Assembly: GCA_026874595.1 (NCBI GenBank)
Contig: CM049309.1
Span: 10,875,076-10,939,075, forward strand
Length of the DNA stretch: 64,000 nt
Origin: Sipunculus nudus
Lineage: Eukaryota; Annelida; Sipuncula; Golfingiida; Sipunculidae
Direction of reading: 5' to 3'
The translations under genes and the position numbers were made by a program. Below are positions 1,904 to 60,219 of the stretch, piece by piece. Each line of letters begins with the position of its first letter. Position 1 is the first letter of the stretch. The notes under the pieces are model-generated. The model saw only the letters and a list, made by a program, of their open reading frames with translations, was not told where the DNA came from and ran no database searches.

Positions 1904-2067
1904 CTGTTTTGTTTCCTCTAGTGTAGTATATGTGAAGTCAGGCTGTAGACTGCTGGTAAATGACTGGTACAGACGCTGCTGGGAAGCCATGAAGCTGGTG
2001 GTCAGCTCCAGTTGCTGACGCAGCATGTCATTCAGTGCTATCACACTCGGGCTATAACCCGTCATCA
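1904..2067 (-). CDS. C19orf44: C19orf44-like protein, exon 7 of those seen (helical C-terminal region)
   Basis: The exon is bounded by an acceptor ending TTACAG and a donor GTGAGG. It is 164 nt, entering in phase 1 and leaving in phase 0. It encodes VMTGYSPSVIALNDMLRQ and continues through QLELTTSFMASQQRLYQSF to YTTLEETKQ. From memory of the family, vertebrate C19orf44 has the same order here: a YSPAVLALHDVLKQQL-like helix, a histidine/leucine-rich helix, and a TLEEAKEYI-like end. This is the most conserved part of DUF4614. The protein's function is unknown and no catalytic motif is visible. The following C-terminal exon was not found in the window, so the gene is partial at this end. Confidence 0.88.
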
Positions 2068-2326
2068 CTGTAACATAAAACACAATACAGCACTGAAAAA
2101 ATTTTAATGAGAGAGTTCAACTGAAAAGTTGTTGATTTTGGTACACTTTTCATGCAGTGGGTAATACACTGTAGTCGTTCCAGAACATTTTAGTTTTAAC
2201 CTTTTGAAAAATTTTTTAAAGATATTATGATGCATATGATATGTTTATGGAGAAAAAACAAATGATGGGAGGAGGATGGAGCATTATTATAAAAGCATCA
2301 TGGTAGTGTCATTTTTAGTGACTTAC

Positions 2327-2520
2327 CTTCTAAAGCATCTGGACTGACCACATGGGTGGCTACTGGAGTTGGATCCACAAACCCAAGTCCATGCTCAGCT
2401 CCTGGTACAGCAAAGCCCCCTGCTAGGTTCCATTGGTAAACCAGTGATCCCAGATCCAGGCCGGTCTGGACCTCAGTGGTGCGTGTGTGGATGGATTTCC
2501 TCTGTTTACTTCTGCTCTGT
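2327..2520 (-). CDS. C19orf44: C19orf44-like protein, exon 6 (DUF4614 core)
   Basis: The exon is 194 nt with acceptor ATAACAG and donor GTAAGT, entering in phase 2 and leaving in phase 1. It encodes a basic start (QSRSKQRKSIHTRTTEVQTG), then YQWNLAGGFAVPGAEHG and FVDPTPVATHVVSPDALE. The FVDPTPxAxHVxSxDAxE block is what convinced me of orthology with vertebrate C19orf44, which carries an almost identical block (YVDPTPIANHVISADAIE) directly before the YSPAV helix. The order matches the next exon exactly. Confidence 0.9.
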
Positions 2521-4657: not shown

Positions 4658-4772
4658 CATCACTAGAGGGCGGGCTTTCTTCCCCAGAGTCTATTCCCAT
4701 GTGGCATTCCTCTTTTTCTGATATATCTTCCAGAGGAGTTGGTGTTCGTCTTGGTGGTGGTGACCTGGACTT
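4658..4772 (-). CDS. C19orf44: C19orf44-like protein, exon 4
   Basis: A 115-nt exon with acceptor TTTTCAG and donor GTAATG, entering in phase 0 and leaving in phase 1. It encodes KSRSPPPRRTPTPLEDISEK and then an acidic EECHMGIDSGEESPPSSD. It is too short to be caught as an ORF, but both splice sites and both phases fit the neighbouring exons. The intron upstream of it (4773-13640) is almost 9 kb. It holds the splice-donor minisatellite and the nested mobile elements. Confidence 0.8.
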
Positions 4773-4850
4773 CTGAAAAGACAACATACAAAATGCTGAT
4801 TACTGAAAAACATGCATGTCATTCTAAAAGTTTTACATGATAACATGTGA

Positions 4851-4898
4851 AACTAGAATACCGGTAGTCGACAAGTGACAACGTGTATTCACCAAAAT
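4851..4898 (+). mobile_element. Element Q, 5' fragment, split by element L
   Basis: Starts with ACTAGAATACCGGTAGTCG and includes GTATTCACCAAAAT. The same 5' end is seen at 10120 and 57000 in the two intact Q copies. Here it stops after AAAAT. The continuation (CAGAGTGGGACGGGTGA) resumes at 11724, after element L. The 5-bp AAAAT is present on both sides (4894-4898 and 11719-11723), as expected of a target-site duplication made by L. Confidence 0.75.
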
Positions 4899-7800
4899 AG
4901 TGTGGGGGCATATGTCACAGAGTACTTTTTCCCTATAAAAAGTGGACACCCTACATTTTTGTGATCCTTAGACCTTAAACTTTACAAAAAAATATGGTGC
5001 CAATTTTTCTATAGTGGTTTTGTCATATTTTCAGGTCAAATTTGATTTTAGAGCAAAAATTGAGGACCATTATATAAATATTTCATACAGAGAGATATTT
5101 AGTAATAAAACACCTCAAAATGGTTAGTAAGATATATTGCATCACAATAACTTAGACTAGACACTAAAATACTGTGTTAAGACGTTTATTACAATATTAG
5201 AGAGCACCCGTAGAGCGCAAACCTCCGCCAACACATGGATCCGCATCAAGATCCATCGGACTAATCATGAAAATTAATCAGCTGTTGTTTGTCCACCAGT
5301 ATTTTGTTCTACAAAATTTCATTGATGAATTCATTAAAAAAATTTATATAGAGACAACAAGGTATCCTTGGGTAGTTTGTGGAATGTACATATGGCGGAC
5401 CACTTGCTGATTTCAGGCAACCTGTATCGTATACGGTATGGCTCCACTTTCCTTGGTTTTAACCAGTGACTAAATATTTGCTTCATTTATACATAACATA
5501 TGAAAATGGCCCTGTTATCCTTCCATTTGATATGATTTTGTTATTGCGTCATCCTATTGTTCCATTATTACATCACCAACATCACTATCCGCTCGCTGAT
5601 AGTGAAGGTATAGAAACCCGTCTCTTACGGTTAGTTCATCCAAAGTATATTTAAAGGTTCCTATGGAATTCTAGGGAGCATTTTTATGTTTTGGTCATAA
5701 TCAAAAAAATAATTTGTAAAATTTTAAGGCGGATGACTAAATTTTTTTTACATATTTTGTGAAGAATAAACAACAGAAAAAGAACAACTTTTGACTGGAT
5801 TTAGTGCCAGATCCTCACTAACCCAACCAAAAGGTTTAGGAAATTCTACCTGGTCCACCATTCAGAGTGAAATGGAGTACATGTTAAGAAGCAAAATAAT
5901 AATAATAATCATAATAATAATAAAAACATTGTTCATATCATTTGGGAGCAATTATACCTTCTGTGGAGTAGCTATTTTCATTGGTTATTTACAGACATTT
6001 ACAGTAGAATGAGACATGTAAAGGACAGATAATCAACAATGAATGAAATGCATGTTTTGCTGCAGAATTGATTAAGGAGAGTGTACTGAAAAACAAAACA
6101 AAGGGACCTTAAAAATTTAGAATTTTAGAAAAGTCCTGTTGAAGGAATCAAACTTGAAGTAAATATCAAATCATAACAAAAAAAGTGTCATCATTAGTCA
6201 TAATGTTATCGAACGTGTTTACAGTTGTTCTTCTATCCCATCTTTAACACCCCCCCTGATGGTCTATTTTTTAATCTAATTTGTTTGGTGGGCCAATTTC
6301 TTTTATACATTTATGAGAATATGAAACCAAGGCATTCAGGGTATACCAGTACAATAACAAAAACGGACAAATCTTAACAGAAACTATGGTAAAACCAATG
6401 GTAAAGTTTAAATATAACAATGGTAAAGTTAAATGCTGGTTATTGTTGAATTCTTGTCGCTTTTTCATTATCCTTAAATGACTTGTGATGGCACAGTGGC
6501 TACATAGGCTGTTCCATCCGTTAGAGCAAGATCACAGGTACAACATTAATTTTTTTTTTTATGAAAATAGTAATCTGAAGACAATGAGTAGCACCCAGCT
6601 TGTACTATCTATATATAATGCGAATTATGAAATAAAGAATAAAGAAAAGTCTATTCTTATATTTTATAAAATCTGACTGGTTATGTCATTAAATGCAGGG
6701 TATGTCGGATGCAACAGCGGAATGTACATCTTTGACTGGAGCCCATGTTTTTTTTTTATCATTTTATACCAAATAACTCCAGACAAAAACTTATGCATTT
6801 TATACCTGCTTAACTAATACTCATTTTCCCTTAAATCGTGACCAAGAACAATTTTGATTTATTGCACAAGCTAACAAAATGACACGTGCCTTATACAATA
6901 CACAAATGCCTTGAATGTAATTAAAGGTTTTTGCATTTCTTTTTGGTTATTGTAATTTTAATAAAGGCCATAAAAACAATAACAAAATTGTTTGGGTTAT
7001 AATATGGGGACTGGTATAGAGGAAGTCAACATTAAGGTTGTTGTGTGTGTGTCTGTCATTCATTTTTACCTCAATGTATAGGAAAATTAAGTGTCTAAGA
7101 AACTACATGGGTGGGAGCTACCTTATGGGATAGCTTAAATGACTAGAGATTACCATTGCTTTTAGAAAAAAATTCACACTTATCCCCTGAAGAAAAAATT
7201 TGTCAAGGTACATAAACATTTGCAACAGTATGTAAATTATCTCATGCCCTTTGTTCATTAGTTTGGCGAAACCATCCCTGTACACGGACTTACAATATTC
7301 AATTCACCTTTTTCCTTCATTGTTATGGTTCTGTGTGTGAGTAAACACAGTCCACGTGTGTCTGTGTACCATAAAAAGACCGTCTGTTCTTGCGCGTGCA
7401 CAACTCCCAAACAAGGAAAAATGATATGGAAGATTAAAAAAAAAAGATACACCATTGGGATGCTTGAGAAAATCTTGATTTGTAAAGTAGCGCGGTTTGG
7501 CTGCCAGGTGCCATGCGCGTTATGTTTATATTTGTACCACTGATCTCGCAAACCTAACATCACTTGTGTACAGGAGAACTCAAATGGTTTACGATGAAAT
7601 ATTAGCAGATACCATAATATTTTAAGGAAAAAAAAACAAGCTATGTGTGTTAAGCATTTAACACTATATATGTTTATCAAATATACTTGGTATGTGAATA
7701 GGTACATTTAATATAACCGAAAAATAATTTTAGACAATCCCAAACTAGTCAGAGAACTAAGTTTGTGTGTTTAGTATGTAAATACATTCAAAAAAGAACC

Positions 7801-7915
7801 TTTCCTATCCTCTTGTCCCAGCTTACTTTGTTTATGTTTCGGTCAAAGTTTATTAATTTAACATTTTAAATACTATTTTAATACAAGCTGAAAGACATGT
7901 CAAAACTGAATAAAA

Positions 7916-9890
7916 CTAGATGTGTCGGAACGACACGAATGCCCCCGCCTGGGGCAAATTAGAAACATTTGTTAAATTTTGTAAAAATTTTTTAAGTTCA
8001 GGAGGTGTCATATGGTCAAAAGTAGGTCAACAGGGGCAAAATGCAAACTCGATCTATAACGGGTCATTATCAAGCAACACACCAAAAATCAGGCTAGTAT
8101 CTGCAGGCATTGTGAAAAAAAGTCCATACGTGCATTTTCATAAAAATTTCTGTCTTTCATGAAATTTTCTATGTTCAGGATCTGTCATCTGGTCAAAAAT
8201 AAGTCAACTGGGACGAAACGCGAACTTGATCTGTAAGTGGTCATTATGCGCCAACAGACCAAACATTAGGCTAGTATCTGTAAGCACTGCATTGCAAAAC
8301 TAGAATATTAACAAAAGCTGATAATCAGTTATAAATTTAAATTGGAGAGGTATGTACCATGTTTCATAACAATCCACCAAATGCTTCCTGAGAAATAAGC
8401 TCCTAAGTTTTTATCTATACTAAGCTCTGTGACCTTGAAAAGTAGGTCAAGATCACCCATCTTTGAACTTGACCAAAATTTTGTAAATATCATGCATTAG
8501 CACTGAAGAAATTAAGTTCCTGTGTTGAATACCTTTGGAGATATCCTGCACAAAAGGCCAATATTGAAAAATCGGATAAAAATTCATTTAAAAATCAGAA
8601 ATTGTAGGTGGTGCCACCAAAATTGTGCAGCACGCACAGAGCATCATTCCAAATGATCATAGTAAGTTTTGTGAAAATCCACACAATGGTTCCTGAGATA
8701 TAAGCTTCTGAGTGTTTTTGTATAATCAGCTCTAAAACAAAGAAAAATAGGTCAAGGTCACCCATCTTTGCACTTGACCAAGATTTTGTTGATATACATC
8801 TTCACTGATGAAATAAAATTCCAACGGTGAATCCTTTTAGAGATATCCCGCTCACAAGGCCAAAATTTAAAAATCCGATAAAAATTGATTAAATAATCAG
8901 AAATTGCAGGTTGGGCCACCAAAATTGTGCAGCACGTACAGACCATCAGTCCCAATGATCATAGTAAGTTTTGTGAAAATCCACACAATGGTTCCCGAGA
9001 TATAAGCTTCTGAGTATTTTTCTATAATCAGCTCTAAAATGTAGAAAAATGGGTCAAGGTCCCCATCTTCGAACTTGACTGAGATTTTATCGATATACAT
9101 CTTCACTGATGAAATAAAATTTCAACCGTGAATCCTTTTAGAGAAATCCTCCTCACAAGGTAAAAGTTCACAGACGCGGACAGACGGACGTCAGACGGAC
9201 GGACAGACGGCAGCAAGACAGACGGACAGACGGACAGCTTGGGTGACGACAATAGCCCATCAGCCTATGAGCTGAGGGCTAAAAACGGCTGTACATGTAC
9301 ATTTGTCATGAAATTTATATTTTTCATACAATTTTCTATGTTTAGGAGCCGTAAAACAATCAAAAGTAGGTCAACCGTGAGGAAACGCGAACTCGATGTG
9401 TAACTGGTCATTATCCTTCACACCAAAAATCAGGCCAATATCTGCAGCCATTGCGAAAAAAAGTCCATACATGTGTATTTGTCATGATAATTTCTATTTT
9501 TCATGAAATTTTCTAAGTTAATGAGCAGTTAAATGGTCAAAAGTAGGTCAACTGGGACGAAATGCAAACTCAATCTGTAACTGGTCATTATCTACCTTCA
9601 CACCAAAAATCAGGCCAATATCTGCAGGCATTGCGAAAAAAAGTCCGTACATGTGTATTTGTCATGAAAATTTCTATTTTTCATGAAATTTTCTAAGTTT
9701 AGGAGCCGTAAAACAGTCAAAAGTAGGTCAACCGGGAGGAAACGCAAACTTCATCTGTAACTGGTCATTATCTGTCCACACACCAAAAATCAGGCCAATA
9801 TCTGCAGGCATTGCGAAAAAAAGTCTATACAACTGTTTGATTTCGGAATGACGGAAGGACGGACATGGGTAAAACTATATGCCTGGGGCA
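7916..9890 (+). mobile_element. Tandem-core element E1 inside L
   Basis: Inserted into L with TAAAA on both sides (7911-7915 and 9891-9895). The empty site is seen in L copy 2 near 33930. It starts CTAGATGTGTCGGAACGACA, passes CCCCCGCCTGGGGC, and ends near TATGCCTGGGGCA. The interior consists of about 175-bp tandem units, recognisable by AAAGTAGGTCAAC, ACTGGTCATTAT and CACCAAAAATCAGGC, starting near 7960, 8130, 9300, 9470 and 9650. The array is split by a further insertion at about 8295-9285. The ends and tandem core resemble bivalve pearl-type non-autonomous elements. Confidence 0.65.
8295..9285 (+). mobile_element. Element N nested in E1, 303-bp tandem core
   Basis: It interrupts a 175-bp E1 unit at the GCATTGC position. 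It begins AAAACTAGAATATTAAC, similar to the 5' end of Q. Its core repeats at 8444, 8748 and 9051 (period about 303 bp), recognisable by AGGTCAAGGTCACCCATC and TGATCATAGTAAGTTTTGTG. It ends with a GACGGACAGACGGACAG tract (9175-9240) and GAGCTGAGGGCTAAAA. Confidence 0.6.
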
Positions 9891-9937
9891 TAAAAATTGG
9901 CACCATGTTTTTAAGGCTTCATAGAAAGGTGAAGAAC

Positions 9938-11657
9938 AACAAGTGACCCACGGGTCATGACGCTCAGCTGACTGGGAAGAGATTTGCAAAAGGAAATTTT
10001 ATCATCAGAATGGTAGTATATACCCATTCAACTGAAGCATCAAACAGATTAACCAACAGGCAAAAATTTAATCTGTATTTATATATCTCAAAAATAGAGA
10101 TAAAATGTGTAAACTTTAAAAACTAGAATATGGGTAGCCGACAAGTGACTACGTGTATCCGCCAAAATCAGAGTGGAAGGGGTGAAGTGAGGCATGGATT
10201 GAGTGGCAAGGGGAAATAGAGTGAGGTATGTTGCATATAAGCATGGATGTCTGCAGCCTAAATGTGTATGTAGGTTGTGCCACCTACCACAAATCCAGAA
10301 AGCTGTCCAAGTTGTATACATGTGCAAAATTTTAGGCAGAAAAGTCAAATCACTACATGTATATGAGTGATTTTAGCCCACGGCAGACAAACAGACAGAT
10401 AATGTGCAAAAATGGTTGCAGGTGGCCCCTCCAGTTTTGTGTATGATAAAGACCTATGTGAGATCTAAACACATGCACAATTTTGGCCCAATCGGTCATA
10501 TGGTTCCTGAGATATGAGCTTGGATTTCTGCAGCGTTAACTAGAATGTAGGTGGCTCCACCTGTCATAAAATCAAGAAAGCTGTCCAGGATGTATAGACC
10601 TGCAAAATTTAAGGCAGTTATGTCAAACCACTACAGAGAAATGAGTGATTTTAGGCCACGGCAGACAAACAGACAGATGCTGTGCAAAATGTGCAAAAAT
10701 GGTTGCAGGTGGCCCCTCCAGTTTTGCCTATGATAAAGAGCTATGTGAGATCTATACACATGCAAAATTTTGGCCCAATCGGTCAAACGGTTCCAGAGAT
10801 ATAAGCTTGGATGTCATCAGCGTGAACCTGAATGTAGGTGGCACCACCTGTCATAAAATTAAGAAAGCTATCCTGGATGTATACGCATGCCGAGTCAATT
10901 CACTGCAGATATATGAGTGATTTTAACCCAAGGCAGATTAACAGATGGCAATGTGCAAATATGGTTATAGGTGGCGCAACCATTTTTTGTGTATGTTATA
11001 AAGCAATCCAAGGGCTACATTTGTATAAATTTTATTTCCTGATTGGTCAAACGGTTCCCGAGATATGAGGGATTATGTGTGGAAACAGACGTACAAATGG
11101 AAGCTGGATAGAGAGGAAAGGTCAGAGGTCAACGCAAATTGGTTAGGCACCAGTTCACATGTGACCCGATAATTGGTGTAAGTTTCGGAAAAATCGGTCC
11201 TATCGTCTCAGAGGAGCTCTCTGGAAATGAAGGTGGTGGCGGTGTAGGAACCCGGTCAAAACATAGTATCCGCAAAACTTCGTTTTGGCGGATACAAAAT
11301 ACAGGTGGCTCCACCAGTCTGCAGAAACTAATAAAAACACTTAATGGTCAATGTCTCCACATTAGTTGTTCAGATACTTCAGCTTTTGTATAAAAATGTC
11401 CATTATTCTGAGGTATACTTCGGAGTCCTATAGCTTGAAGGATATGGGAAACAGAGACCTAATTTCTGGTTTCCATGGAGACTTTTCATAGGTCTCTCAG
11501 TGTGTCAAGAATTAAGATTCTAGGTCCAGTCTTAACGATTTGTGCCTTGTTAACAGATGTTCACATTTTTAAAGGTCTCAAAAATAGAGAAAAAAATTCA
11601 TAAAAAAATCGAAAAATACAGGTGGCGCCACCAGTCTGCTTTCAGTCAGCTGAGCTA
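9938..11657 (+). mobile_element. P/Q composite element, copy 1
   Basis: The outer element P starts AACAAGTGACCCACGGGTC, followed by GCTCAGCTGACT, and ends AGTCAGCTGAGCTAAAA. The 12-bp GCTCAGCTGACT is inverted at the 3' end. The empty site in L copy 2 reads GAAGAACATAAATGC near 33974. Element Q (10120 to about 11300) is inserted inside P at the same place as in the copy at 56816. Helentron-type rolling-circle elements are known for short subterminal inverted repeats and a 3' hairpin. That family assignment is inference. Confidence 0.65.
10120..11300 (+). mobile_element. Element Q with tandem core and 3' hairpin
   Basis: The 5' end reads ACTAGAATATGGGTAGCCG and then GTATCCGCCAAAAT. The core is tandem units of about 285 bp, made of two related halves; the starts near 10256, 10547 and 10834 read GTAGGTGGCNCCACCTGTC or similar. 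The 3' end has a hairpin at 11267-11294: TATCCGCAAAAC, loop TTC, GTTTTGGCGGATA. The right arm is also inverted relative to the 5' GTATCCGCCAAAA. It is non-coding. Confidence 0.65.
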
Positions 11658-11718
11658 AAAATGCAAGGGGTGTCACATTTTTACAAACAAAATTTACTCA
11701 GGACGAATTTGCTACACT

Positions 11719-12370
11719 AAAATCAGAGTGGGACGGGTGAGAGAGGCATGGATTGAGTGGCAAGGGGAAATAGAGTGAGGTGTGAATATTACCATGGATG
11801 TCTGCAGCCGAAATGTGTATGTAGGTTGTGCCAACTACCACAAAATCAGAAAGCTGTTAAAGTTGTATACATATGCAAAAAGTCAAACCACTGCCGAGAT
11901 ATGAGTGATTTTATCCCATGGTAGACAAACAGACAGATGCTGTGCAAAATGGTTGCAGGTGGTGCCACCAGTTTTGCCAATGATAAAGAGCTATATGAGA
12001 TCTATACACATGCAAAATTTTGGCCCAATCCGTCAATTGGTTCCGAGATATGAGCTTGGATGTCTGCAGCGTGAACATGAATGTAGGTTGCACCACCTGT
12101 CATAAAATTGAGAAAGCTATCCAAGATGTATAAACATGCAATATTTTAGGCAGATAAGTCAAATCACTGCCGAGATATGAGTGATTTTATCCCATGGCAG
12201 ACAAACAGACGGACGCAGTGCAAAAATGGTTGCAGGTTGTGCCACCAGTTTTGCGTATGATAAAGAGCTATGTGAGATCTATACACATGCAAAATTTTGG
12301 CCCAATCGATCAAACGGTTTCCGAGTTATGAGCTTGGATGTCTGCAGCGTAAACAATGATGGCTATGGTG
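11719..12370 (+). mobile_element. Element Q, continuation after element L
   Basis: Resumes AAAATCAGAGTGGGACGGG directly after L and follows the Q consensus seen at 10160 and 57040: a GAGTGAGG block, then the GTAGGTTGTGCC and GCAGGTTGTGCCACCAG half-units. It ends near 12370 without the 3' hairpin, so it is truncated. Together with 4851-4898 it forms the outer layer of the nest. Confidence 0.7.
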
Positions 12371-12914
12371 AAGCTTTATAAGTTGTTTATTTATCATATT
12401 AAATATAACTTTATTTAAATAAAAAGTTTGCTAATTACATATGATGTCTTACAATAGTCACTAAGACAGTTCTAAAATCCTGGATAATGTGAGCTCCACT
12501 GACATGAAAAACATGCCATCTAGTCAGGCAAGGACCCACATATCCTAAATCATCAAATAAAATGTCGAGACTAACAAGCCTGCAATGCTAATTTCAAATC
12601 TAAAGTTAAAACAATTTTAGTCAGAGTTCTTTCCTTTCTTTGTCACCCAGCACAAAAAAAAAATCTATCTGGTAGCTGATGAATCAGATTGTTGAAACAC
12701 CACTCCATGATCCTTTTCTTGTAATTTAAAAAAAGAACATCATCTGATAGGAAAGTACTGCACAACATTAAATTAATATTGGTTAAAGGATAATGTGGGA
12801 TCAAAAGCTTTGGGTGATTTAGATCAAGAAGATAATGACAACACGAATACTAGTGTCAAGGCAAATATTTAGCACATGTATAGCGGCTGGGTTTGTGTGT
12901 CTGCATCTAGAGTT

Positions 12915-13640
12915 GGAGTGTACTTACCTAGAGCCTGGGTTAAGGTGTGCCTGTTTGGAGCATACTTACCTGGAACCTGGGTTTAGTGTGGCCGTTTGGA
13001 GCATAATTACCTGAAGCCTGGGTTTAGGTGTGGCCGTTTGGAGCATACTTACCTGAAGCCTGGGTTTAGGTGTGGCCGTTAGGAGCATACTTACCTTGAG
13101 CCTGGGTTTAGGTGTGGCTGTTTGGAGCATAATTACCTTGAGCCTGGGTTTAGGTGTAGCCGTTTGGAGCATACTTACCTGAAGCCTGGGTTTAGGTGTG
13201 GCTGTTTGGAGGATTATTACCTTGAGCCTGGGTTTAGGTGTGGTCGTTTGGAGCATACTTACCTTGAGCCTGGGTTTAGGTGTGGGTGTTTGGAGCATAC
13301 TTACCTTGAGCCTGGGTTTAGGTGTGGCTGTTTGGAGCATACTTACCTTGAGCCTGGGTTTAGGTGTGGGTGTTTGGAGCATACTTACCTTGAGCCTGGG
13401 TTTAGGTGTGGCCGTTTGGAGCATACTTACCTTGAGCCTGGGTTTAGGTGTGGCCGTTTGGAGCATACTTACCTTGATCCTGGGTTTAGGTGTGGGTGTT
13501 TGGAGCATACTTACCTTGAGCCTGGGTTTAGGTGTGGGTGTTTGGAGCATACTTACCTTGATCCATGGTTTAGGTGTGGGTGTTTGGAGCATACTTACCT
13601 TGAGCCTGGGTTAAGGTGTGGGTGTTTGGAGCATACATAC
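12915..13640 (-). repeat. 42-bp minisatellite, 17 units, each with a 5' splice site
   Basis: On the minus strand each unit reads GTAAGTATGCTCCAAAC, then ACCCACACCTAAACCC and AGGCTCAAG. The unit is the last 27 nt of the adjacent exon (ending 13641) plus the first 15 nt of its intron. The period is 42 bp throughout, except for one unit with a 1-bp deletion near 12986. Many units carry CAG or AAG followed by GTAAGTATG, a better match to the U1 consensus than the exon's own CAG/GTATGTATG. Because 42 is a multiple of 3, the frame stays open through about 15 units. A T-to-A change in the unit nearest the exon (TTAACC near 13611) creates an in-frame TAA. On the opposite strand the array also gives long but meaningless ORFs. 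Confidence 0.9.
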
Positions 13641-13825
13641 CTGTAGTCTGGGTTTAGGTGTGGGTGGTGATCTGGGAGCTCTGGGTGTTGCTGATGAGCT
13701 GATTTCATCAGAACTGTTCAGACCATGTATGAAACCCTGCATGGATTCTTCATCAGAGTCCAGTGCTAACTTGGTGTTGATTTTCTGGGCACTTGGTAAC
13801 TGGTACATAGATCTCTCATTACTTG
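13641..13825 (-). CDS. C19orf44: C19orf44-like protein, exon 3 (adjoins donor array)
   Basis: A 185-nt exon with acceptor CATTGCAG, entering in phase 1 and leaving in phase 0 at donor GTATGT. It encodes ASNERSMYQLPSAQKINTKL, then an acidic patch (DSDEESMQ), then SSSATPRAPRSPPTPKPRLQ. The proline-rich end, TPKPRLQ, is the sequence amplified in the downstream array. The first donor is the only one that avoids an in-frame stop, so I place the exon end there. Transcripts are needed to show which donor is used. Confidence 0.8.
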
Positions 13826-14190
13826 CTGCAATGACAATAACACATTGCATGTCTGTGCAGTCTCACAAAGTGATACATAAAAATGACAGAAACAAAAATG
13901 CATATCTAGAACACATTATGGTGTTCTGAATGATACTGATATTTCAAACTGAATCTGTATTCCTCAAAATATCACAGGGTAAAATTATTTTTCATAACAG
14001 TTCATATCAGTTACATTCAATTGACAGTTTAATTATCTAATCAGGACTGGATACTTTTTTTGTAAACATATTGGGTCATGTTTGTTACTTTCTTCAGGGC
14101 CAGATGTACACTTTTTTTACATATTGCAAAATTATGTGATCATGCTGTTTGTACAACAACCAGATGATATGAAATACAAAAAATATTTAC

Positions 14191-14797
14191 CAGGCTTTGT
14201 CTCTTGTGTTTTAACTTGTGGCTCTGTAAAATCAGTGCTGGTTGCGGGTTTCTTTATAAATCGATTCCCAGCTTTTCCTAAGTTTCCAAATTCTGAGTCA
14301 CTGCTGGATTGCAACTCTGGTGCCCTGCTTTTGTTAACTCTACCTGCTGTGGATGGTTCATATACATTATGGGAACCAAACGCAGTTTTCGGTGGAGGTT
14401 TTTGTGCTGGTTGCTGTTTCTTAACTGGAAGTACCTCAGAATCCATGCTCATATCAAAATCAATATCACTGTCACTTGTGAGTGATAATCGGGGCTGTGG
14501 CTTTGGTTTAGTCACCTGCCGAGTCTTTTCGGCGACCTTTGAAAGGACACCACTTTCTCTCTTGGTAAATTTGTTAAACGACTGTGATTTAATTGGCTCT
14601 GCTGCTGAGGTGCATGGTTTCTGCGCTGCTGGGGATGTTTCCTGTTCTGTCTTTTTCTTCAGGAACTTATTGACTGGTTTCTTTTCTGCTGCTACTGGGT
14701 TATAGTTCTCAGTATCGGAATCTTCATCTTTATCCAGCATCTCACTCCAGTTTATCTGATGAGGGTTTGTCTTATGGCTAAGAGCACTCAGATAAGC
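14191..14797 (-). CDS. C19orf44: C19orf44-like protein, exon 2
   Basis: A 607-nt exon with acceptor GATTCCAG and donor GTAAAT, entering in phase 0 and leaving in phase 1. It encodes AYLSALSHKTNPHQINWSEM, then LDKDEDSDTENYN, then KKPVNKFLKKKTEQETSPA, which matches the KVSRFLKKKQ...ISPE patch of vertebrate C19orf44. The remainder is polar and disordered with acidic DSDIDFDMSMDSE and DSEFGNLG patches. No folded domain is recognised. Confidence 0.87.
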
Positions 14798-25227: not shown

Positions 25228-25694
25228 TCAGAACGCCGTGTGCTGCACACCATCCGTGTCAATGAACCGAAGTCCACATCTATGGTCATTCCTGTATCCC
25301 TGGTTACACATCAAATCCTCTATCAACATCCTGGCTGCGATGCTAGACCTGGCTGGGTGATGGGGGATCTTTTCTCGTCGATTGACGGCCAATTCTTTTT
25401 CTGACTCTTCAAAAGAACAACTCTCCTCATCAGAGCTTTGCATGCTGTAGTCGTTCCATGATATGTACTTTTCTTCAAATGTTTCAGGAATACGGCTGGA
25501 CCAAGTACCACTTGTGTTAGTTTCGTCAATGTCCGACAGAGGGCTCAGTGGTGGCAACATCTCCAGTACCGGCGCATCTTCCTCTGACGATGAAGACGTG
25601 TTTGTTGTGTCCATCTCTGAGAAGAACATGAATTCTCCCTGCCAGTCTTCCTCCTCACTCTCACCATCAGACAGCATCGCCCAGTCCTGAGAAT
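25228..25694 (-). CDS. Unrecognised acidic Ser-rich protein, exon 2
   Basis: A 467-nt exon with acceptor GGTTGACAG, entered in phase 1, ending at TAA/TGA-bounded ...GVQHTAF. It encodes 154 residues plus one split codon. It starts DSQDWAMLSDGESEEEDW and is strongly acidic and serine-rich for about 100 residues (SSSSEEDAP, SSDEESCSFEESEKE). It ends in a more ordered, basic segment (ARSSIAARMLIEDLMCNQG, then HRCGLRFIDTDGVQ). Acidic linkers with a conserved-looking tail suggest a regulatory or adaptor protein. I do not recognise the family and propose no function. No signal peptide or membrane segment is visible. Confidence 0.7.
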
Positions 25695-25950
25695 CTGTCA
25701 ACCAAATAAATTAAATATATTTAAATAAATATATATATATAATTTCTTTACATGTAAGATATCTTTACCAGTGACATTAACTCAGCCTGTATGTTTCGAA
25801 ATTAAAATAATGTTATTTTTATATTATTTTGTAGGGAAACCATAAGTAAATAGCATTATTATCAGCATAAAAACATGTTACAATATATACATTCGGTACC
25901 TGATATATAACAAGAATAGCTCTATAAATTAAAGAGGGCATAATGTATAC

Positions 25951-26143
25951 CTAGAGCTTGGAAAATCTGTTCTTGACATGCACGCAGAGCGTCTCCTTCT
26001 CTAGCAAACATCAGGGCTGGTTGGGGTTTCTTCAGACCATGGAGCTCCTCCCGAAGTCCAGGGAACTTGCTGTAGTCCAGACGATATTGCAAGTGGACTT
26101 CAACTGTTAGTGGCTCTGTCACAGGTAGTCTTACGTCATCCAT
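25951..26143 (-). CDS. Unrecognised acidic Ser-rich protein, exon 1 with start codon
   Basis: The start is ATG at 26143. It opens MDDVRLPVTEPLTVEVHLQY, then RLDYSKFPGLREELHGLKKP and REGDALRACQEQIFQALG, looking like a compact folded segment of about 65 residues. The donor GTATAC at 25950 leaves in phase 1 and joins the acceptor at 25694 across a 256-bp intron with an exact frame fit, giving a 219-residue protein. CRE-like TGACG motifs lie just upstream (about 26155). The gene sits between the C19orf44-like gene and Gq-alpha on the same strand and is flanked by local repeat S. Codon use and clean splice sites argue for a real gene. Its identity is unknown. Confidence 0.7.
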
Positions 26144-26214
26144 AGTTTTTTCTTGTGACGTCTATGCCTTCCCGTGATGCAATGTATAGTACTCCTGTTG
26201 TTTAACTTTTTTTA

Positions 26215-51700: not shown

Positions 51701-52021
<321 letters not shown>

Positions 52022-56815: not shown

Positions 56816-59800
56816 AACAAGTGACCCATGGGTCATGATGCTCAGCTGACTGGGAAGAGATTCGCAAAAGGAAATTTTATCATCAGAATGGTAGTATATA
56901 CCCATTCAACTGAAGCATCAAACAGATTAACCAACAGGCCAAGATTTAGTCTGTATTTATATATCTCAAAAATTGACAAAAAATGTGTAAACTTTAAAAA
57001 CTAGAATACGGGTAGCTGACAAGTGACTACGTGTATCCGCCAAAATCAGAGTGGAACGGGTGAAGTGAGGCATGGATTGAGTGGCAAGGGGAAACAGAGT
57101 GAGGTATGTTGCATATAAGCATGGATGTCTGCAGCCTAAATGTGTATGTAGGTTGTGCCACCTACCACAAATCCAGAAAGCTGTCCAAGTTGTATACATA
57201 TGCAAAATTTTAGACAGAAAAGTCAAACCACTACATGTATATTAGAGATTTTAGCCCACAGCAAACAAACAGACAGACGCTGTGCAAAAATGGGTGCAGG
57301 TGGCCCCTCCAGTTTTGTGTATGATAAAGACCTATGTGAGATCTATACACATGCAAAATTTTGGCCCAATCGTTCAAACGGTTCCCGAGATATGAGCTTG
57401 GATGTCTGCAGCATAAATTAGAATGAAGGTGGCGCCACCTGTCATAAAATCAAGAAAGCTATCCAGGATGTATAAAACTGCAAAATCTAGGCAGATATGT
57501 CAAACCACTACTGAGATATAAGTGACATTATCCCATGGTAAACAAACAGACAGGCGCTATGCAAAAATGGTTGCAGGTGGCACTACCAGTTTTGTGTATG
57601 ATGAAAAGCTATGTGAGATCTATACACATGCAAAATTTTGGCCCAATCGGTCAAACTGTTCCCGAGATATGAGCTTGGATGTGATCAGCGTGAATGTGAA
57701 TGTAGGTGGCGCCATCTGTCATAAAATCAAGAAAGCTATCCAGGATGTATACGCATGCCGAATTTCAGGTGAATTAGTCAATTCACTGCAGAGATATGAG
57801 TGATTTTAACCAAAGGCAGATGAACAGATGGACACTGTGCAAACATGGTTACAGGTGGCGCCACCATTTTTTGTGTATGTTATAGAGCAATCCAAGGGCT
57901 ACATTTGTATAAATTTTATGTCCTGATCGGTCAAACGGTTCCCGAGATGTGAGGGTTTATGTGTGGAAACAGACGCACAAATGGACGCTGGATAGAGAGT
58001 AAAGGTCAGAGGTCAACGCAAATTGGTTCGCCACTAGTTCACATGTGACCCGATAATTGGTGTAAGTTTCAGAAAAATTGGTCCATTATTCTCAGAGTAG
58101 CTCTCTGGAAATGAACGTGGCGGCGGCGGAGGAACCTGGTCAAAAACATAGTATCCACAAAACTTTGTTTTGGCAGATAAAAAATACAGGTGGCTCCACC
58201 AGTCTGCAGAAACTAATAAAAACACTTAATGGTCAATATCCATGCAAAGAATCATGATGATCTCTGCACTAGTTGTTCAGATACTTCAGCTTTTGTATCA
58301 AATTGTCCATTATTCTGAGAGATACTTCAGAGTCCTATAGCTTGAAGGATATGGGTAACAGAGACCTAATTTCAAGTTTCCACAGGCACTTTTCATGGGC
58401 CTCCTTGCATGACAAGAATGAAAATTCTAGGTCCAGTTGTTGCAATTTGTACCCTGTTGACAGATAACCACATCTTTAAAGGTCTCAAAAAAAGAGAAAA
58501 AAAATCGTAAAAATTTGAAAAAAAAGAGGTGGCGCACCCAGTCTGCAGAAACTGATGAAACAGCTCATGATCAATATGTATGCCGAAAATCATGACCACC
58601 AGTGTTGTAGTTATTGAGATACTGCAGTTTTTGTATCAAATTTTCCATTATTCTTGGGGGTATTTTGGAGCCATACAGCTTAAAGAATATGGGTAACAGA
58701 GACCTAATTTCAGGTTTCCATGGAGAATTTTCATGGTTCTCCCTGTGTGTCAAGAATGAAGATTCTAGGTCCAGTTTTTATGATTTGTGCCCTGTTAACA
58801 GATGTTCATATCTTTAAAGGTCTCAAAAATAGAGAAAAAATTCGTAAAAAACCCGAACAAATACAGGTTGTGCCACCAGTCTGGAGAAACTGATGAAACA
58901 CTCCATGATCAATATCCATGCAAACAATTATGGTGATCTCTGCATTAGCTGTTCAGATACTTCAGCTTTTGTATCAAATTTTCCATTATTCTGTGCTGTA
59001 CTATGGCGTGCCATAGCTCAAAGGATATGGGTAACAGAGACCTAATTTCAGGTTTCGATGGAGACTTATCATGGGTCTCCCTGTGTGTCAGGAATGAAGA
59101 TTCTAGTTCCAGTCGTTACGATTTGTACCCTGTTGACAGATAACTACATCCTTAAAGGTCTCAAAAATAGAGAAAAAAAAAATTGTGAAAATTTGAAAAA
59201 ATACAGGTGGCACCACCAGTCTGCAGAAACTGATGGAACATCTCTTGATCAATATGTATGCCAAAAATCATGACCATCCGTGATGTAGTTAATGAGATAT
59301 TGAAGTTTTTGTATGAAATTCTTGACTATTGTGGGGGGTACTTAGGGGCCCCATAGCTCGAAGGATATGGGTAACAGAGACCAAATCTGGTTTCCAAGGA
59401 GAATTTTTATCGACCTTTCAGAATGTCAAGTTACAAGATTCTAGGTCCAGTCTTTATGATTTGTGCCCTGTTAACAGCTGTTCACATTTTTAAAGGTCTC
59501 AAAAATAGACAAAACAATTCATAACAATTGAAAAATACAGGTGGCGCCACCAGTCTAAAAACTGATGAAACATCTCATGATCAATAAGTATGCCAAAAAT
59601 CATGACCATCAGTCAAGTAGTTAATGAGATGTTGAAGTTTTTGTATGAAATTTTTTACTTTTCTGGCGGGTACTTTGGGGCTCCATAGCTAGAAGGATAT
59701 GGGTAACAGAGACCTAATTTCTGGTTTCTATGGAGACTTTTCATAGGTCTCTCAGTGTGTCGAGAATGAAGATTCTAGGTCCAGTTGTTAAGAGTTGTGC

Positions 59801-60219
59801 CACGTTAACAGATGACAGCATCCTTAGAGGTCTCAAAATTAGAGGGAAAAATCGTAAAAAATTGAACAATACAGGTGGCGCCACCAGTCTGCAGGAACTG
59901 ATGGAACATCTCATGATCAATATGTATGCCAAAAATCATGACCATCAGTGATGTAGTTATTGAGATATTGAAGTTTTTGTATGAAATTTTTTACTTTTCT
60001 GGGGGGTACTTTGGGGCCCCATAGCTCAAAGGATATGGGTAACAGAGACCTAATTTCTGGTTTCCAAGGAGATTTTTCATGGACCTCTCAGAATCCCAAG
60101 TTACAAGGTTCTAGGTCCAGTGGTTACAATTTGTGCCTGGTTACCTGACGGACAGATGGACAGATGACGGACAAAGAGTGATCGCTATAGCTCAGATGAC
60201 TTTCAGTCAGCTGAGCTAA
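56816..60219 (+). mobile_element. P/Q composite element, copy 2 (3.4 kb, both ends present)
   Basis: Left end AACAAGTGACCCATGGGTC, GCTCAGCTGACT; right end hairpin then AAAA. Q lies at 57000 to about 58185 with its hairpin at 58152-58179. P's own core follows as six units starting 58187, 58528, 58863, 59204, 59537 and 59871 (333-341 bp). Each starts AGGTGGCGCCACCAGTCTGC or near, and contains GGATATGGGTAACAGAGACC. The block GACGGACAGATGGACAGATG precedes the end. The structure (subterminal inverted repeats, tandem core, tetranucleotide tract, 3' hairpin) is that of pearl/Helentron-type non-autonomous elements. Confidence 0.75.
60188..60218 (+). other. 3' terminal hairpin of element P
   Basis: Arms TAGCTCAGATGACT and AGTCAGCTGAGCTA with loop TTC; 13 of 14 positions pair. 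It is immediately followed by an A run at the element's end. The equivalent arms at 49583-49602 and 51341-51370 are less perfect. Confidence 0.8.

Follow-up and report, generated by a model that had tools for sequence, protein, structure and literature searches.

A minisatellite of tandem candidate 5' splice sites at an exon-intron junction of a DUF4614 gene in Sipunculus nudus

A minisatellite in the human gene IFI6 (6-16, G1P3) is reported to provide multiple splice donor sites (Turri, Cuin and Porter, 1995, Nucleic Acids Res 23:1854). Its unit is reportedly 12 bp long and located at an exon/intron junction. Two downstream repeat units of IFI6 serve as donors, giving rise to three mRNA species, and use of the downstream donors results in different protein isoforms (PMC4526556). 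Internal tandem repeats at exon-intron boundaries have also been described in human segmentally duplicated genes, where their expansion alters gene structure and often yields alternative transcripts (PMC2812944), whilst a new intron in potato arose from a tandem duplication that spanned such a boundary (PMC4974935). Competition among donors for a single acceptor is known from tandem donors of the GYNGYN type (PMC1779574), and intron 4 of DOK7 carries two competing 5' splice sites 11 nt apart, one of which leads to a truncated protein (PMC5585400). A repeated junction was not found in the available portion of a fish myostatin paper dealing with intron repeats (PMC3045353).

The 64,000-nucleotide stretch of Sipunculus nudus DNA analysed here (the window) contains a minisatellite that resembles that of IFI6 in carrying multiple splice donors, with donor use reported for IFI6 and the donors of the present locus being candidates identified from sequence. 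The original prediction knew of no named class for such an array, a view contradicted by the published precedent of human IFI6/6-16. Judged by its sequence, this locus adds another example to the IFI6-type splice-donor minisatellites, with a unit longer than that of IFI6 (42 bp, comprising 27 exonic and 15 intronic bases, versus a reported 12 bp). The two also differ in outcome, as downstream donor use leads to protein isoforms in IFI6, whereas here a TAA codon truncates all downstream products. Distinctive of the present locus are an exonic donor that pairs less well with U1 than most array donors and a stop codon within the first unit. Minisatellite expansion at an exon-intron boundary is shared with the segmentally duplicated human genes; there the repeat gave rise to new introns or remained exonic (PMC2812944), whereas here it supplied an intron that was already present with additional donors at its beginning. 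The potato case likewise involves a boundary-spanning tandem duplication that doubles splice signals, but comprises one duplication and a new intron rather than many copies of a donor boundary (PMC4974935). GYNGYN donors and DOK7 both have, like the present locus, multiple candidate donors per acceptor, although DOK7 offers a pair, separated by 11 nt, instead of an array (PMC1779574, PMC5585400).

The host gene was modelled on the minus strand as seven exons, picked by eye, that form one continuous frame with consistent phases and GT/AG ends (Table 1). This model is incomplete at both ends and its joined partial protein comprises 718 residues, of which residues 551-718 matched DUF4614 (PF15391; E = 3.4e-43, 148.3 bits against a cut-off of 25, profile positions 2-173 of 180). 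The gene therefore matches as a DUF4614 gene, a designation that assigns it no function. In human, the PF15391/DUF4614 family is represented by C19orf44. A C19orf44-like gene appears in a table for mussel (PMC11817969). In viral contigs, a collection not expected to hold such genes, three pattern stretches were found for the DUF4614 domain and none was confirmed. The intron following the array exon also contains arrays at 8371-9160 and 9291-9825 (302-bp and 180-bp units, respectively) and one at 10235-10884, and so, with the donor array, holds at least four different arrays. The array at 10235-10884 and another at 57113-57751, some 46 kb apart, have similar units of approximately 280 bp whose consensus sequences start alike, and probably represent one dispersed repeat family.

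Table 1. Coordinates of the donor array and of the gene that carries it (positions within the window)
Feature	Position	Strand	Basis
First exon of the model	16052-15882	-	Frame/phase chain
Exon preceding the array exon	14191..14797	-	Frame continuous into 13825-13641
Array exon, 185 nt; enters in phase 1, leaves in phase 0; 3' end is a parent-like repeat copy	13641..13825	-	Frame continuous with 14797-14191 and 4772-4658
Exon's own donor, CAG/GTATGTAT	13633..13643	-	U1 duplex -10.2 kcal/mol
In-frame TAA in unit 1	13611..13613	-	Read in products of 17/17 downstream donors
Tandem units, n=17 (16 x 42 bp + 1 x 41 bp), each with an AG/GT donor	12913..13625	-	TRF, donor listing and core count
Array donors, last base before cut	13599, 13557, 13515, 13473, 13431, 13389, 13347, 13305, 13263	-	
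Array donors (continued), last base before cut	13221, 13179, 13137, 13095, 13053, 13011, 12970, 12928	-	
Probable decayed partial unit without donor	12865..12912	-	Local alignment score 29, reached by 0/1000 shuffles
Intron holding the array, 8868 nt	4773..13640	-	
Next exon, phase 0 start	4658..4772	-	Frame/phase chain
Exon; DUF4614 begins near its end	3982-3265	-	Frame/phase chain and Pfam profile
Two exons with most of the DUF4614 domain	2520-2327, 2067-1904 (1904..2520)	-	PF15391 profile

TRF delimited the array at 12913-13663 with a period of 42, 17.9 copies, 91% matches and a score of 1194, and the junction at 13641 falls inside its first copy. The minus strand carries 18 AG/GT donors in register, namely the exon's own at 13641 and one in each of 17 units (13599 to 12928), in agreement with the predicted run of about 17 tandem 5' splice sites after a single exon. 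Donor spacing is 42 bp throughout, apart from one 41-bp unit before 12970; an out-of-register AG/GT at 12977, inside this shorter unit, was excluded from the donor counts. A 17-base core containing the donor occurred 18 times at three or fewer mismatches, compared to a mean of 0.17 in shuffles, with all 18 occurrences in the array. By homology, 27 bases of the unit correspond to the exon end and 15 to the intron start, as had been proposed; the correspondence is not exact, however, as the exon's own copy agrees with the consensus of the units in 36 of 42 positions. The 17 units displayed a mean pairwise identity of 91% and comprised 14 distinct sequences, those at 13515, 13347 and 13263 being identical to one another, as were those at 13431 and 13389.

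Units lying farther apart in the array differed more (Mantel r 0.40; 2 of 10,000 permutations as high), and the array appears to be bordered by a decayed partial unit. The case for the latter is one of location, immediately beyond the final unit, since a double-unit query reached a score of 37 at its best match in the far larger remainder of the window, versus 29 for 12865-12912. Similarity between neighbours and a decayed edge would together give the usual look of a minisatellite subject to local duplication, with an older edge. Origin from a dispersed repeat or transposon was rejected, as the donor core (three or fewer mismatches) was absent elsewhere in the 64-kb window and the best gapped match outside the array scored 37, lower than the 45 reached by the end of the array exon. 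A search of viral contigs with the unit yielded no match. Profile matches of the array frame to Bcr-Abl_Oligo (E 1.5e-07, 31.7 bits, cut-off 23.1) and DUF7131 (E 0.0064, below cut-off) were attributed to the repetition itself, with no stretch passing singly in either case. With regard to intron gain by tandem duplication, inspection of the units by eye, unscored, revealed no obvious pyrimidine tract before AG.

Splicing from the downstream donors had been predicted to add multiples of 14 codons in frame, which holds for 15 of the 17; the 41-bp unit comes before the two most distal donors (12970 and 12928), which are out of frame by one base. Also as predicted, the first unit contains a TAA, at 13613-13611, that is read from all 17 downstream donors, leaving only the product of the first donor untruncated. 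The array is a real splice-donor minisatellite, most likely a passive one, and we consider it fairly probable that downstream splicing is unproductive and the array tolerated within this DUF4614 gene. A 42-bp stretch across the exon/intron junction would have been duplicated in tandem, after which the array would have grown and been partly homogenized via local unequal exchange or slippage. Splicing from 13641 to 4772 would then generate the only mRNA able to encode the full protein, whilst the downstream donors resemble strong U1 binding sites. Any of them that was used would give a transcript that stops at the unit-1 TAA and lacks everything after exon 13825-13641, DUF4614 included, and because further introns lie downstream such transcripts would, as a general rule, probably be removed by nonsense-mediated decay. 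On this reading the array is tolerated as a by-product whose cost, if any, falls on expression.

The 18 donors comprised ten AAG/GTAAGT, three CAG/GTAAGT, one TAG/GTAAGT, the exon's own CAG/GTATGT, and three with GTAATA or GTAATT. AG/GT was intact in 18/18 copies and GTAAGT in 14/18, consistent with the expectation that every unit offers a donor, many of them CAG/GTAAGT or AAG/GTAAGT. Donor strength was expressed as a simple duplex energy with the 5' end of U1, with no trained splice-site score behind the figures. By this measure, 14 of the 17 array donors (-11.9 to -14.0 kcal/mol) were stronger than the exon's own, and the remaining three (13221, 13137 and 13011; -6.6 to -8.1 kcal/mol) were weaker. 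The same 14 also surpassed every one of 437 GT sites elsewhere in the intron (from 12900 downstream), the best of which reached -9.9 kcal/mol. The description of the proximal donor as the weaker one holds beside these 14, but this donor is not weak for the gene, whose six other examined donors ranged from -5.3 to -11.6 kcal/mol, three being stronger and three weaker. Ranking fourth of the seven examined, the exon's own donor is of middling strength for the gene, and it is weak only by comparison with the array. One fold of 1101 nt gave a mean predicted pairing per donor of 0.34 to 0.83 across the 18; the proximal donor (0.67) was not singled out, and concealment of donors by RNA structure was rejected. 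Inverted repeats of 12 bases or more were absent within 12700-13900.

Since 14 of the 17 array donors are predicted to pair with U1 more strongly than the proximal donor does, their use may reach a relevant level. The original prediction had envisaged competition or copy-number-dependent isoforms. The array might then function as a copy-number rheostat, in which strong donors compete with the weaker productive one and the proportion of unproductive, TAA-containing mRNA, and hence the level of DUF4614 protein, depends on how many units there are. Minisatellites are expected to vary in copy number between individuals. We regard the rheostat as possible but unlikely, and tuning of DUF4614 protein level between individuals by array length, through the number of decoy donors, as a little more doubtful. 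In its favour are the superior predicted pairing of the 14 donors over both the proximal donor and all other intronic GT sites, the TAA awaiting every downstream product, and DOK7 as a precedent for two competing 5' splice sites of which one leads to a truncated protein (PMC5585400). Besides the ordinary strength of the exon's own donor within its gene, the comparison of units speaks against such a role, as it revealed no donor-specific conservation. Sixteen of 42 columns varied among the 17 units, three of them in the 9-nt donor, which contained 9 of the 40 minor-allele cells; among the 42 circular windows of that length (itself included), 26 held as few or fewer. AGGT was invariant, yet so were 6 of 42 four-base windows, itself included. 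In sum, unit variation gave no positive indication that donors or a peptide are under selection, at the small power that 17 related units provide for detecting weak selection, and the array is probably neutral.

The array could instead be a decayed coding repeat, once exonic and adding 14-residue repeats until it was shut out by the TAA, but we consider this improbable. The unit does amount to 14 codons, the frame beyond the TAA is open for 214 codons, and the peptide pattern of the exon end continues through the array frame. Such openness is to be expected, however, given that only 3 of 126 single changes of the unit consensus make a stop. Distinct in-frame changes comprised 4 synonymous, 13 nonsynonymous and 2 stop changes, versus 4.5, 14.0 and 0.5 expected at random, so that synonymous changes were not in excess (4/19). 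With random-like changes, a TAA in unit 1 and the frameshift of the 41-bp unit, there was no indication, at low power, of a frame kept by selection as in a coding tandem repeat, and this reading, offered in the original prediction, found no support in unit variation.

It is similarly improbable that the array serves as a docking site for U1, with uncut sites binding U1 snRNP and thereby guarding the long intron against premature polyadenylation or strengthening exon definition. Thirteen sites keep GTAAGTAT intact and agree with the U1 complement in 10 or 11 of its 11 positions, and the intron contains 11 AATAAA/ATTAAA hexamers, all downstream of the array. The nearest hexamer, however, lies about 500 nt past the array, the hexamers are putative signals given as a raw count, and the 11-nt U1 site displayed no conservation signal (10 of 40 minor cells; 20 of 42 circular windows equal or lower). 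An assembly artefact in copy number appears very improbable: assemblies often mis-size tandem arrays, but 14 distinct sequences among 17 units with an ordered similarity indicate that the array itself is very probably real, its exact length being less sure.

Given RNA, this locus would make a good natural test of donor competition. Should the downstream donors be used, it would titrate the competition between 5' splice sites naturally, with 17 near-identical donors following one productive donor at regular steps, in which the internal stop marks every misuse and length alleles would reveal the effect of donor number on splicing. Should they be unused, the spliceosome would pass over 14 better-pairing U1 sites within approximately 700 nt, and the locus would bear on how exon ends are chosen.

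Elsewhere in the window, an array at 58180-60137 comprises 5.8 copies of a 338-bp unit that includes the short palindrome GGTGGCGCCACC. Open stretches with protein-like sequence were present on the minus strand at 25228-25710 and 25922-26161, with no Pfam match at E 0.1, and a further minus-strand open stretch at 51701-52021 matched the G-protein alpha subunit (PF00503; E 3.2e-21, residues 39-95 of 107).
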